Positions 5,215 through 30,669 of a stretch of DNA of 46,418 bases are shown here, in pieces (the first letter of the stretch is position 1; each line of letters starts with the position of its first letter). A model generated the notes under the pieces. That model searched no databases and was not told the DNA's origin. It saw only the letters and a list, made by a program, of their open reading frames with translations. This DNA is from a virus: positions 1-46,418 of IMG/VR virus record IMGVR_UViG_3300042922_000799; one strand, written 5' to 3'. The translations under genes and the position numbers were made by a program.

Positions 5215-5251
5215 CTGTGATTTTTTGCGCATCTTATTCATGAAATACTCT

Positions 5252-5296
5252 CTCCTTTGCGTATCTTTTATTAGACCGACGCAAAGGAGTTTTTTT
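5252..5296 (+). terminator. Terminator hairpin whose 3' arm is the radC ribosome site
   Basis: A perfect 11-bp stem pairs CTCCTTTGCGT (5252-5262) with ACGCAAAGGAG (5279-5289), followed by seven T residues at 5290-5296. It ends the folC-HAD transcript. The 3' arm also holds AAAGGAG, the only Shine-Dalgarno sequence for radC at 5297, so in any readthrough transcript the radC start would be masked. Confidence 0.8.
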
Positions 5297-5770
5297 ATGA
5301 TCAATGAAACAGAGATTCCCCAAAGCTCGTTCCCACGAGAGCGCTTAGTGCAATATGGGGTTGATGCCCTTTCGAACCAAGAACTGTTGGCAATTTTGTT
5401 GCGGACTGGCTCACGGCCCCTAAATGTCTTGGAATTAGCGGCTAGTGTCTTGAATCGTTTTGAAGAATTGTATGAATTAAAAGAAGCGACAATCGATGAA
5501 TTACAAGAAATTCGCGGCGTCGGACAAATCAAAGCCATCGAGATCAAAGCGATGATTGAATTAGGTGTGCGGATCCAGCGGTCTGTTCAACCAAAGTACG
5601 GCAAGATCAACTCCAGTATGGCGATCGCTCATCAGCTGATCCAAGAATTAAAAGACTTTCGTCAGGAGCACTTGCTCGGGATTTATTTGAATACCAAAAA
5701 TGAGATCATTCAAAAAAAGACGATCTTCATCGGATCGTTGAATCAGTCAATAAGTAACAGTAAATACTAA
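5297..5770 (+). pseudogene. radC: radC 5' fragment, interrupted by the prophage
   Basis: N-terminal two thirds of the RadC/YeeS family JAMM-domain protein. The helix-hairpin-helix part (IRGVGQIKAIEIKAMIELG) and the start of the JAMM domain (KKTIFIGSLNQS) are intact. The reading frame then runs into phage DNA and ends after ISNSKY, giving 157 residues where about 225 are usual. The zinc-binding motif HNHPSG is missing here and is found at the other prophage end (46294 onward). The ATG at 5297 follows AAAGGAG. The last 4 bases overlap the convergent integrase gene. The lysogen should lack functional RadC unless the phage excises. Confidence 0.93.
5740..5767. other. attL, left prophage junction in radC
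   Basis: Host radC sequence continues to the TC at 5747-5748 and phage sequence follows. The phage side carries the arm ATAAGTAACAGTAAATAC at 5750-5767, which is the inverted partner (16 of 18) of GTATTTACTGCTATTTAT at 46273-46290. Joining the host halves restores the RadC peptide [14 protein letters not shown] in frame. The TC dinucleotide is the only sequence shared at the crossover, which fits a serine integrase. Confidence 0.88.
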
Positions 5771-7176
5771 AAAATAAAATTGACAATTACATCTTCATCG
5801 CTAAGGGTTACTCTGTCAATAAGTCTACGTGCAATATTAATTTTTAATTCTGTAGCTGCATTTTCCCAGTCAAAGTTTTCAGCTTCGTCTAGAAGCAGCA
5901 TCTTTTCGTTTTTATCGTCCTCCATGTCTAGGGCGGCCAGCTCATGTTTAAGTTCGTCTAAGGTCATATTGATAGAATAGATGCGATCATTTAAGGTGTC
6001 GACTTCGATGTTTCCGAACTGGTAGAGATCAATCAACTTGTTTTTTTCAGTCTCTTTCTTTTTCAAGGCGTTCTCTATGTCCTTTATTTGCTGTACTTTG
6101 TCTATTTTTTCGTTTTCAATATCAAATCGTAACTGTTTGAAGTCTAAAGTCTTGATTGCATCGATTACTTTCGCTTCGACTGCCTCGCATCGTTGGCGCT
6201 TCTGATCGCAGTCCCAATCCTTCACGAGGGACGGCATCATTTTTTTCACTGATCGGCAAGTGTAATAGGCGTAGTTATACTTTTTCCCTTTGTAGCTTCC
6301 GCCACCGCCGGCTTCTCTGAAAACCTTCGCGCTGCATTTTCCGCAGTAAATGAAACCGGCAAGGAGTGATTTCTGATTGTGATTTGTGGTGCTAAATTTT
6401 GCTTTTTCCCTGAATATCTTTTGCGCCTTTTCGAATAGTTCCTGAGAAATGATAGGGGAGTGGTTGCCTTGATAGACTTGGCCATCCCAGCTTATTTTCC
6501 CGATGTAAAGCGGGTTTTGGAGGGCGTACTTTATGATCGTCAGAGTTTTTACTTTGTCTGGGTATTTTTGGACCAGCTTCCGCGTAATATGTTGCTGACC
6601 CTTACCGTGGTTTACATACAAATCAAATATTTCTTGTACAATTTTTGCTTCGTGCTCATTAATGATCAGCTCACCGTTTACGTAATCGTAGCCCAGCGGG
6701 ACGACTCCTGATCCGTGGTAATAGCCTTGTTTTGCACGTTCTGTTCGCCCCATGTGCATTCTTTCTGTGATGGTGTCTCGTTCAAGTTGAGCAAAAACAG
6801 ATAACATACCAATCGTCGCCCGTCCGAATGGGGTGGAGGTATCAAAGCTTTCTAGCATTGAGATGAAATCGACACCGTACTTTTGAAAGACATCCTCAAT
6901 CAAGTATAGAGTGTTTTTCTGCGATCGAGAGAGACGATCTAATTTGTAGACGATAACGATATCAATCTTCTTAGCTTTTACGTCAGAAATCAATTCCTTG
7001 AGGCCCGGACGTTCGAGTTTTGCCCCAGAATAGCCCGGATCAGTATAGGTGTTCACGACATAATAATCTTTTGCTTCTGCGTAGGCTTTGAGTTTACTTG
7101 TTTGCGCTGGTATCGAGTAGCCTTCTTTTGCTTGCTCCATAGTAGAGACTCTTATATAGAGTGCAGCTCTTTTCAT
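5767..7176 (-). CDS. int: Large serine recombinase, phage integrase
   Basis: 469-residue site-specific recombinase that integrates the phage into radC. The catalytic domain starts ALYIRVS with the nucleophile Ser11, followed by YSGAKLERPGL, YKLDRLSRS and FAQLERDTITER, the usual resolvase/invertase blocks. A recombinase domain follows (residues about 165-260), then a zinc ribbon with cysteines in FIYCGKCSAKVF and later CRS, DWDC and RCEA, and a C-terminal coiled coil rich in K/E. Length and order match A118/TP901-1-type large serine integrases. The ribosome site TAGGAG precedes the ATG. The stop codon touches the attP right arm, so int and its attachment site are adjacent. A directionality factor was not recognised in the window. 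Confidence 0.96.
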   Translation of the reverse strand: MKRAALYIRVSTMEQAKEGYSIPAQTSKLKAYAEAKDYYVVNTYTDPGYSGAKLERPGLKELISDVKAKKIDIVIVYKLDRLSRSQKNTLYLIEDVFQKYGVDFISMLESFDTSTPFGRATIGMLSVFAQLERDTITERMHMGRTERAKQGYYHGSGVVPLGYDYVNGELIINEHEAKIVQEIFDLYVNHGKGQQHITRKLVQKYPDKVKTLTIIKYALQNPLYIGKISWDGQVYQGNHSPIISQELFEKAQKIFREKAKFSTTNHNQKSLLAGFIYCGKCSAKVFREAGGGGSYKGKKYNYAYYTCRSVKKMMPSLVKDWDCDQKRQRCEAVEAKVIDAIKTLDFKQLRFDIENEKIDKVQQIKDIENALKKKETEKNKLIDLYQFGNIEVDTLNDRIYSINMTLDELKHELAALDMEDDKNEKMLLLDEAENFDWENAATELKINIARRLIDRVTLSDEDVIVNFIF

Positions 7177-28616: not shown

Positions 28617-28880
28617 ATGCGAAATAAAGTCACATGTCCCGCATGTCGCTGCTTTACGGCCGTCAATTATCACACTGAACGCGTTCGTGGGGATATTAAA
28701 CACACCTATGCGCAATGCGAGAATTGCGACCATAAAGTGACAGTGCACTACACCAATTCTCACATCAGAAAACTTTTGAAACGTCAGCAAAGCACTGTGA
28801 ATATGGTGCAGAAGCGAAAACTCGCTGATAAGATTCAACAGTTAATCTCAGAATTGAGCGAAGAAATAAAGTCTAGCTGA
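28617..28880 (+). CDS. Small zinc-ribbon protein
   Basis: 87 residues. CPAC (residues 7-10) and CENC (34-37) form a four-cysteine zinc ribbon with a beta hairpin between; the C-terminal half is a basic helix (RKLLKRQQSTVNMVQKRKL). It lies one base after the MuF gene (GGAGG upstream) and ends inside a terminator hairpin. Such ribbons in this place could be late regulators resembling Ogr/Com (the Mu com gene product is a zinc-finger translational activator); this is only a hint. Confidence 0.75.
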   Translation: MRNKVTCPACRCFTAVNYHTERVRGDIKHTYAQCENCDHKVTVHYTNSHIRKLLKRQQSTVNMVQKRKLADKIQQLISELSEEIKSS

Positions 28881-28898
28881 TGCTGGGCTTTTTATTTT
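28870..28898 (+). terminator. Intrinsic terminator after the zinc-ribbon gene
   Basis: AGTCTAGC (28870-28877) pairs with GCTGGGCT (28882-28889), eight pairs with two wobbles, loop TGAT, followed by TTTTTATTTT. The stop codon of the zinc-ribbon gene is within the loop. It should lower transcription into the capsid genes unless overridden. Confidence 0.7.
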
Positions 28899-29018
28899 GC
28901 CTTTTCACTTTTAGGCGTAAAAGAAAAAGCAGTCTCGATTGATTGGCGTAACCGATCACTTTATTTCGGCTAGTGGGCGTAACTCACTAAAATTATCGGG
29001 TAGCGGACGTAACCGCGG
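28899..29018 (+). repeat. Array of hairpin elements with a CGTAA loop before the scaffold gene
   Basis: CGTAA occurs at 28916, 28947, 28978 and 29008, a spacing of 31, 31 and 30 nt. The second and third sit as the loop of 7-bp stems: TGATTGG/CCGATCA (28940-28946, 28952-28958) and TAGTGGG/CTCACTA (28971-28977, 28983-28989). The fourth has GCGG/CCGC (29003-29006, 29013-29016) around ACGTAA and touches the scaffold ribosome site. The first overlaps another stem CTTTTA/TAAAAG. Stem sequences differ while pairing is kept, which points to an RNA structure, perhaps a binding site for a protein that controls the capsid genes. Confidence 0.7.
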
Positions 29019-29028
29019 GAGGACAAAC

Positions 29029-29601
29029 ATGAAGAGTAAGAAATTTTTATTGCCGATGAAGCTACAGTTTTTCTCAGAGGATCCAGAAGGCGGCACACCT
29101 CCAGAGGGCGGACAAGGTGCAACACATCCTGATCCAGAAAAGCCAGAAGGTGGAAAAACCTTTTCTCGCGATGAAGTATCTAAAATGCTGAATGCCGAAC
29201 GTGACAAAATCAAAAAAGAGCTTGAAGACAAACAAGCCGAAGCAGAAAAACTTGCCAAAATGAACGCCGAAGAAAAAGCGAAGCACGAGAAGCAACAACT
29301 CGAAGCGAAAGTCGCTAAGCTTGAGCGAGAAGCAGCTTTGAAAGAAATGGCGTCAGAAGCATCTAAAATGCTGTCAGAAGCTGAGTTGCCGCACGATGAG
29401 GATCTGATCGCTCTGGTTACTAGAGAGGATGCAGAAGAAACCAAGAAGGCAGTAGAAGTGATTACTTCGTTTGTTTCAAAGATCAAGAAAGAAAATGCAC
29501 GCCAAATGCCACCTGTTGCAGGTGGACAATTTTCTGGCAGCGACAAAAACAGGAACACTACTAAAGCTGAAATGGCTAAGGAAGTAAGAATTATTAAATA
29601 G
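29029..29601 (+). CDS. Capsid scaffolding protein
   Basis: 190 residues of the DUF4355-like scaffold type. After the N-terminal MKLQFFSEDPEGG comes a disordered acidic/glycine stretch, then a long coiled coil (DKIKKELEDKQAEAEKLAKM onward, residues about 60-115) and a short helical C-terminal part. It directs capsid shell assembly and leaves or is degraded before packaging. GGGAGGA precedes the ATG. It lies just before the major capsid gene. The N-terminal LQ-F-F motif recurs in the capsid protein. Confidence 0.88.
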   Translation: MKSKKFLLPMKLQFFSEDPEGGTPPEGGQGATHPDPEKPEGGKTFSRDEVSKMLNAERDKIKKELEDKQAEAEKLAKMNAEEKAKHEKQQLEAKVAKLEREAALKEMASEASKMLSEAELPHDEDLIALVTREDAEETKKAVEVITSFVSKIKKENARQMPPVAGGQFSGSDKNRNTTKAEMAKEVRIIK

Positions 29602-29613
29602 GAGGATTTGCAC

Positions 29614-30669
29614 ATGAAAAACAAACGCTTAATGAACATGAATCTCCAGTACTTTGCACAAACTTGGAACCCGGATCACGTCTTGGTCCACGAAATGAAA
29701 GACGGTACAATCCCAGATGAATACAACACATTAATCTTAAAAGAAACGATGGAAAATTCGAAAGTGATGCAGCTAGCACGGTTTGAGGAAATGCAGGGCC
29801 GAGAAAAGGAATTTGAATTCTTTGCCGAAGGACCAGGCGCATACTGGGTTGGCGAGGGTGAGAAAATCAAAACCAGCACGGCTAAATGGCTACAAGTCAA
29901 AATGGAAACGCGAAAACTTGGGGTCATCCTACCCGTTTCCCGAGAGTATTTGAACTACAAGATGTCGGACTTTTTTGCGCAGATGCATCCCCGGATTGCC
30001 GAAGCATTTTATAAAAAGTTTGACGAAGCGGTGTTGTTAGACATTGATAACCCGTTTAAGCAATCCATGCAAGAATCGGTGTTAGAAGCAGGAAATATTG
30101 TCACTGGACCTTTAGACTTTGATACGATTTTAGATTTAGAAGACACGCTGGAAGAGCGCGAAATCGAAGCGAACGCCTATATCTCTAACCGTAAAAACCG
30201 CCGCGAATTGAGAGAAGCGTCTAAAGTAATTGGCGGTAATACAGAATTAGCGTATGACCGCAACAGCAATACGATCAATGGTTTACCAGTTGTTGATTTT
30301 GCTTCGCTGCCAAAGGGCGAGCTATATGCAGGCGATTTTGATTATATGCGCTACGGCATTCCGTACAACATCAATTTTAAAATCTCAGAGGAAGCTCAGC
30401 TATCTACCATCAAGAATGAAGATGGATCTCCTGTTAACTTGTTTGAGCAAGAGCTATTTGCATTGCGTGCTACGATGGATGTTGCATTTATGATCATTAA
30501 GGATGAGGCTTTTGCCAAAATCGAGTCTGGCGAAGCGCCAGAGGAACAAGAAACACGTTCAGGTAAAGAACTTAACAAATCTGAAATCAAAGCAATCTTG
30601 GATGAACAAGGTATCGAGTATACGGATAAGGAAACGAAAGACGAGTTACTTGCAAAGCTAGGTGAGTAA
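29614..30669 (+). CDS. Major capsid protein with C-terminal HeH/LEM-like domain
   Basis: 351 residues. HK97-fold major capsid protein by position and by segments such as MNLQYFAQTWNPDH, FFAEGPGAYWVGEGEKI and ILPVSREYLNY. The last 35 residues, KELNKSEIKAILDEQGIEYT followed by DKETKDELLAKL, form a SAP/HeH/LEM-like helix-extended-helix motif joined by a charged linker (GEAPEEQETRSG). Such an extension is unusual for a capsid protein, although some siphoviruses carry it. GGAGG lies 8 nt before the ATG at 29614. Confidence 0.92.
   Translation: MKNKRLMNMNLQYFAQTWNPDHVLVHEMKDGTIPDEYNTLILKETMENSKVMQLARFEEMQGREKEFEFFAEGPGAYWVGEGEKIKTSTAKWLQVKMETRKLGVILPVSREYLNYKMSDFFAQMHPRIAEAFYKKFDEAVLLDIDNPFKQSMQESVLEAGNIVTGPLDFDTILDLEDTLEEREIEANAYISNRKNRRELREASKVIGGNTELAYDRNSNTINGLPVVDFASLPKGELYAGDFDYMRYGIPYNINFKISEEAQLSTIKNEDGSPVNLFEQELFALRATMDVAFMIIKDEAFAKIESGEAPEEQETRSGKELNKSEIKAILDEQGIEYTDKETKDELLAKLGE

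Follow-up and report, generated by a model that had tools for sequence, protein, structure and literature searches.

The window analyzed here is the whole 46,418-nucleotide stretch of IMG/VR record IMGVR_UViG_3300042922_000799, which is an Enterococcus prophage record; the closest relative of its scaffold protein is found in E. innesii. A leader lies downstream of the terminator that ends a small zinc-ribbon gene (28617-28880) and upstream of the scaffold (DUF4355) and major capsid (PF05065) genes. The leader and its flanks have the following features, the pseudoknot stems being predicted.

28868-28891, plus strand: intrinsic terminator of the preceding variable gene, found by scan (10 bp and a T tract); its sequence differs or is absent in relatives
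28899-28901, plus strand: pseudoknot stem S1, 5′ strand (GCC), pairing with 28914-28916; GUC/GAC, GAC/GUC, and GUG/CAC in relatives
28908-28912, plus strand: pseudoknot stem S2, 5′ strand (CTTTT), pairing with 28925-28929
28914-28916, plus strand: pseudoknot stem S1, 3′ strand (GGC), running into a conserved GGCGUAAAAG loop
28925-28929, plus strand: pseudoknot stem S2, 3′ strand (AAAAG)
28935-28939, plus strand: outer stem P2, 5′ strand (TCGAT), pairing with 28995-28999 in the minimum-energy fold
28940-28958, plus strand: hairpin P3 (element 2), 7 bp with a CGUAA pentaloop, from covariation
28971-28989, plus strand: extra hairpin (element 3), 7 bp with a CGUAA pentaloop, in the window's own sub-group only
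28995-28999, plus strand: outer stem P2, 3′ strand (ATCGG), from covariation and the minimum-energy fold
29003-29016, plus strand: hairpin P4 (element 4), 4 bp with loop ACGUAA; stem variants in relatives
29017-29022, plus strand: Shine-Dalgarno sequence of the scaffold gene (GGGAGG, from sequence), adjoining P4; the start codon is at 29029
29029-29601, plus strand: capsid scaffolding protein gene (DUF4355, PF14265; Pfam E 2e-20; PHROG 172, head scaffolding)
29608-30669, plus strand: major capsid protein gene (PF05065; Pfam E 4e-30)

The N-termini of the scaffold and capsid proteins (29029-29080 and 29608-29660) carry the motifs LPMKLQFF and MNMNLQYFA, which resemble the Prp cleavage site common to ribosomal protein L27 and phage 80alpha proteins (PMC5744158). 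A radC-like reading frame is cut off beside a minus-strand serine recombinase gene at 5225-7176, which suggests integration of the prophage into radC. The scaffold-capsid region of PQ554527.1 (Acinetobacter phage D2SVT) matches the window as Enterococcus phage B1578 does, with the same span, identity, and E-value, and its host label looks doubtful.

The zinc-ribbon gene (PHROG 1315, of unknown function, by eye like Ogr/Delta-type zinc fingers) is a variable insert, and phages IME197, EFC-1, phiEf11, B1578, and CSJC have other small genes or none at this place and keep the leader. Its product, which an earlier note on this DNA had listed among possible binding partners, is thus an unlikely one. 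The upstream terminator is also variable among relatives and is missing in some of them (L013 and L269; L numbers are our handles for loci). A search of the gap after this terminator found no promoter ahead of the scaffold gene, which means that transcription has to come through from upstream. This absence, together with an annotated terminator after the capsid gene in phage P738, would suit an element that controls downstream terminators by transcription antitermination or attenuation; antitermination was another suggestion of the earlier note. However, the leader lies downstream of the nearest terminator (28868-28891), the very one that some relatives lack, and no U tracts follow the hairpins in relatives; this explanation is weak, and we consider it very unlikely.

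CGTAA starts at 28916, 28947, 28978, and 29008 (spacings 31, 31, and 30), exactly the four positions given in the earlier note. Its description of the hairpins is also borne out: element 2 (TGATTGG-CGTAA-CCGATCA, 28940-28958) and element 3 (TAGTGGG-CGTAA-CTCACTA, 28971-28989) present CGTAA pentaloops on 7-bp stems of differing sequence, G-T pairs being allowed, and element 4 (GCGG-ACGTAA-CCGC, 29003-29016) is a shorter stem at the scaffold ribosome site, of 4 bp with the 6-nt loop ACGTAA and GGGAGG directly 3′. Over the whole window the CGTAA motif is hardly more frequent than chance predicts (96 occurrences against 79 expected). Among 1000 first-order Markov windows generated as a chance control for clustering, four CGTAA on the same strand within 92 nt appeared in a single window, and a cluster of three CGTAA hairpins (stems of 4 bp or more) within 100 nt appeared in none. 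As a whole, the leader has an ordinary folding energy (z = -0.37), so unusual thermodynamic stability is unsupported and the evidence for structure comes from comparison, not stability.

Related leaders were gathered through scaffold homology in phages, IMG/VR, and genomes, which gave 25 distinct Enterococcus leaders, 21 of them aligned (A1). In the outer stem, P3, P4, and S2, 96% of the cells of these 21 leaders are paired. Changes on both sides occur at 7 pairs and in 23 cells, against 2.5 and 4.4, respectively, in shuffles, and structures slid by 1-3 columns as a control give at most one double change. P3 is paired in 100% of cells with three pairs changed on both sides, and its stems around the constant CGTAA include TGATTGG/CCGATCA, TGATAGG/CTTATCA, TGACCGG/CTGGTCA, TGACTGG/CTAGTTA, and TGGCTGG/CTGGCCA. 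The P4 stem appears as GCGG/CCGC, ACGG/CCGU, or GUGA/UCAC, and as GCGA/UCGC or AACAG/CUGUU in other phages, and the first pair of P2 varies between C-G, U-G, and U-A. Compensatory changes thus preserve pairing in relatives, the opposite of the loss of pairing that the earlier note had named as evidence against its proposal of selection on RNA structure. This alignment shows that the hairpins and the outer stem are kept under such selection, the stems co-varying around a fixed CGUAA.

The same comparison bears on a role of the array as DNA or as coding sequence. The period in the window is near three helical turns, and the earlier note had left open a DNA-level role, such as a phased protein-binding, packaging, or recombination site. 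Against this, the spacing drifts between 28 and 31 nt across relatives, the stems change completely yet stay paired, the copy number varies (element 3 occurs in the window, L001, L014, and L015 and is absent from all other relatives), and the array always lies on the same strand and at the same place ahead of the start codon. Phased DNA sites were rejected on the spacing drift, and we give a DNA-level site of any sort almost no credence. The frame upstream of the scaffold start contains stops in relatives; with the drift in spacing and the loss of one hairpin, a coding array was rejected as well, and both a coding role and one tied to helical phase are unlikely.

Element 1 had been described as embedded in an alternative hairpin. 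This local hairpin (CTTTTA-GGCG-TAAAAG) is indeed present in the window, where CTTTTA/TAAAAG competes with a pseudoknot, but relatives favor the pseudoknot instead. In most of them element 1 is not a CGTAA hairpin; the 3′ strand of S1 is followed directly by NUAAAA, and S2 runs from the S1 loop to a site further downstream. Element 1 is therefore better read as an H-type pseudoknot with a GNC/GNC stem followed by NUAAAA. S1 is GCC/GGC, or GUC/GAC (L072, staphylococcal, and lactobacillus-order leaders), GAC/GUC (CSJC), or GUG/CAC (L088), and S2 variants in relatives include GCUU/AAGC, GCUC/GAGC, CUGAUUG/CAAUCAG, CCCAA/UUGGG, and CGUGCU/AGCACG. S2 complementarity is 11.0 within leaders compared with 8.99 (sd 0.48) when permuted, and one of 5000 permutations was as good. 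A pseudoknot grammar, whose anchor (S1 then UAA) was learned from some of the tested sequences, matches 31 of 39 scaffold leaders; shuffled leaders gave 8.1 matches on average, and among 481 other windows 75 matched. On inspection by eye, roughly 25 of those 31 leader matches sit at the expected place. The pseudoknot is thus well supported, still as a predicted structure. Masking of the ribosome site by the S1 strand was considered separately and rejected, since 2011 of 3000 permutations of the leaders gave complementarity as good.

A covariance-model search, as the earlier note had proposed, found related leaders upstream of scaffold genes. The model (R1), built from Enterococcus leaders alone, finds the CSJC-type leaders of Streptococcus (E 0.001-0.02). 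In 106 Enterococcaceae genomes it has 15 matches, 14 of them directly before a scaffold start codon; 13 of these 14 scaffold genes were judged to be DUF4355 (7 checked with Pfam, the rest by sequence), and that of L273 is PF06810. Six further matches were obtained in 398 Lactobacillales genomes, five of which precede DUF4355 genes (three checked with Pfam). The match L281 (E 0.016) has no gene following it and was taken as chance. Only two matches, both known already, were found in 400 genomes drawn across the class, indicating that the modeled leader is mainly a Lactobacillales variant. Phages of Streptococcus, lactobacilli, and Geobacillus thus have related leaders, which with few exceptions stand directly before scaffold genes (DUF4355 or PF06810). 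An early pattern scan of viral contigs gave 58 matches that look like chance; its gap range excluded the known Enterococcus leaders, making it uninformative on distribution. L275, a possible phage satellite, carries a degenerate pseudoknot at 1500-1564 of the minus strand, together with a stem that is perfect but loop-less (TTCGTTGG/CCAACGAA, CGTAA being absent). Both stand before a gene other than scaffold, and an ArpU-like late regulator lies upstream of them.

The literature search found no paper on this leader, and the earlier note knew of no described element like it. This claim does not hold, because the GP20-b RNAs (RF03003) share its first loop and an NCGUAA hairpin. GP20-b RNAs, a family of cis-regulatory type in Rfam, were reportedly discovered by Weinberg and colleagues in 2017, and we know of no function assigned to them. 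Like the window leader, they are phage RNAs directly before a capsid scaffolding gene, with the first loop GGCGUAAAA; by eye, AGGCGUAAAAG at 28913-28923 of the window corresponds to the GP20-b consensus aGgCgUAAAAg, and the conserved GGCGUAAAAG loop after the 3′ strand of S1 is present in GP20-b too. A second hairpin with an NCGUAA loop is found both in the window (GCGG-ACGUAA-CCGC) and in L282 and phi OH2 (CGUGG-CCGUAA-CCACG), which score 44.5 and 48 bits with RF03003; other members, such as EJ-1, have a different second-hairpin loop. EJ-1, phi OH2, and Jimmer1 pass the curated cut-off of 36.2 bits. Conversely, R1 matches L282 (26.7 bits) and phi OH2 (25.8 bits) at the scaffold start, and L273 bridges both models, with 32.6 bits for R1 and 31.8 bits, below the cut-off, for RF03003. 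In 400 Bacilli genomes RF03003 has five matches, all directly before PF06810-type scaffold genes (L273 and L282 checked). Three of the five have an NCGUAA hairpin built like element 4 of the window (CGUGG-CCGUAA-CCACG, CGUGG-ACGUAA-CCACG, and CGAGG-UCGUAA-CCUCG), and an S1-type pairing can be drawn in four, L282-L285 (GUC/GAC, CGUCA/UGACG, and GCCG/CGGC).

The differences are equally clear. Searched at E up to 10, the window has no RF03003 match, so that it does not reach the curated cut-off and Rfam offers no direct answer. GP20-b precedes a PF06810 scaffold, whereas that of the window is PF14265 (DUF4355). In the window, unlike GP20-b, tandem CGUAA hairpins lie inside an outer stem and P4 runs straight into the Shine-Dalgarno sequence, while in GP20-b members the NCGUAA hairpin is about 20 nt from it and the second hairpin is followed by a conserved UAAAAAAGCGUA tail that the window lacks. 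Because it is below the threshold, the window leader is called GP20-b-like and not a member; it represents a new branch, one with DUF4355 scaffolds, within a GP20-b-like class rather than a wholly undescribed element.

The leader is a conserved structured RNA, as the comparisons show, and probably controls the amount of scaffold protein made. Its position before scaffold genes supports the cis-regulatory role foreseen by the earlier note, and the fact that P4 adjoins the Shine-Dalgarno sequence in Enterococcus and lactobacillus-order leaders points to translation. The array would form the 3′ portion of a structured leader at the 5′ end of the scaffold-capsid mRNA (about 28898-29022). In 5′ to 3′ order this leader has an H-type pseudoknot, an outer stem around either one or two hairpins with CGUAA loops, and a final hairpin of that loop type at the Shine-Dalgarno sequence. 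A protein would recognize the pseudoknot together with the invariant CGUAA loops and could then cover or free the adjacent ribosome site; how fast scaffold is synthesized would be set in this way, and capsid synthesis would follow through coupling. The binding protein would most likely be unassembled scaffold, acting in feedback. That the leader is a translational operator of this kind is the explanation towards which we lean, by somewhat more than even chances. Action on translation taken by itself is slightly more probable, and the scaffold as ligand can be named only tentatively.

The DUF4355 and PF06810 scaffolds have no detectable homology (hhalign probability 0.4%), and the leader precedes capsid proteins of differing Pfam families (PF05065, PF20036, PF03864, and none). 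The latter makes the capsid protein, a binder considered in the earlier note, less likely. Loops common to two non-homologous scaffold families and varied capsids fit a host or shared factor better than a co-evolving scaffold; the scaffold as reader leaves one to suppose that two unrelated families converged or that they have an undetected common domain. The leader may then be a translational enhancer or standby site read by a host component, a ribosomal or other conserved RNA-binding protein, with no phage protein involved. In Enterococcus, Streptococcus, and Geobacillus phages alike, the loops GGCGUAAAA and NCGUAA are found ahead of scaffold and capsid families that are unrelated, and both proteins are required in large amounts. 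On the other hand, the element is confined to scaffold genes and is not seen before other abundant structural genes, and the loops drift in some phages (UCGUUG in A118, GCGUUG in phage 80, ACGAAA in Jimmer1). We know of no host factor with specificity for these loops, and this explanation, though unlikely, is a serious competitor, over which scaffold feedback is narrowly favored.

A further alternative is that the 5′ pseudoknot is an mRNA stabilizer or processing boundary against 5′-to-3′ decay (RNase J) of the scaffold-capsid transcript, with the hairpins as additional barriers. The pseudoknot begins right after an intrinsic terminator, or close after a tRNA gene (L080 and L199), so that a processed 5′ end is plausible, and the promoterless gap before the scaffold gene agrees with this. 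Such a role leaves the invariant CGUAA loops and the hairpin adjoining the Shine-Dalgarno sequence unexplained, and it seems improbable. The tRNA genes are found just upstream of the leader at L080:714-787 and L199:1201-1274 (ARAGORN), and by eye in L294 (Bacillus phage 279BB001); they occupy the place of the terminator of other leaders, and a processed 5′ end is possible in all three. The CBASS-activating cabRNA of 80alpha-type phages was also considered and set aside; it derives from terS-terL, not from this region.

In other DUF4355 phages, those of Staphylococcus, E. hirae, Vagococcus, and the Javan271 group, a pseudoknot-like element is kept and the CGUAA hairpins are not. This pattern speaks against the favored operator reading, as does the 20-nt distance of the NCGUAA hairpin from the Shine-Dalgarno sequence in GP20-b members. 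The leaders of L093 (phage 85), L098 (SP276), L096 (EH-TP1), and L008, which belong to staphylococcal, E. hirae, and Vagococcus phages, resemble two tandem pseudoknots without CGUAA hairpins (GUC/GAC, then GCC/GGC, GUC/GAC, or GUG/CAC, each followed by UAAAA). Upstream of the scaffold genes of L095 (phage Javan271), L180-L188, L189-L199, and L090, from streptococcal and Lachnospiraceae-like phages, there is a different, conserved hairpin of the form NNNN-UGGGG-C..G-CAAUG-NNNN with a covarying outer stem; it has no Rfam match in the loci scanned, and L090 combines it with the pseudoknot. A pseudoknot-based scaffold leader may conceivably be a general feature of Bacillota siphophages, a generalization that we regard as rather doubtful. 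The same pseudoknot module would then stand before two unrelated scaffold families, whichever capsid proteins are used, with interchangeable second modules (CGUAA hairpins, tandem pseudoknots, or UGGGGC/GCAAUG hairpins), and would report the state of capsid assembly or recruit a conserved host factor.

To our knowledge, P22 aside, little has been learned of how the ratio of scaffold to capsid is set in tailed phages. Linking the DUF4355 leaders with GP20-b, and adding the pseudoknot, turns two unexplained elements into one testable class, a single RNA design being used with unrelated families of scaffold and capsid. The leader occurs in tractable phages, including S. thermophilus phages and staphylococcal relatives of the well-studied 80alpha, and may yield a small hairpin-protein pair for expression control.

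Among known systems, the coat-protein operator of MS2-type RNA phages is a single hairpin near the start site, with a fixed loop and a changeable stem. The likeness to the window lies in this fixed loop on a changeable stem next to a start site; the MS2-type operator has one hairpin, another loop, and unrelated phages as its carriers. P22 is a Gram-negative phage with a different scaffold, and we know of no RNA site of the present kind described in it. Autoregulation by the P22 scaffold is cited in PMC5744158, which raises it as one model that might apply to the 80alpha scaffold; scaffold synthesis is the regulated step in P22, as proposed for the window leader. The repeats of the T4 gene 32 operator are unstructured UUAAA motifs, whereas those of the window are CGUAA hairpins, and its ligand is the phage single-strand binding protein; homology to the window leader is not claimed. 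The gene 32 operator has a 5′ pseudoknot, after which repeated recognition elements lead up to and into the ribosome site (PMC535899). The window shows a like order, its predicted pseudoknot lying 5′ of the repeats and the ribosome site.
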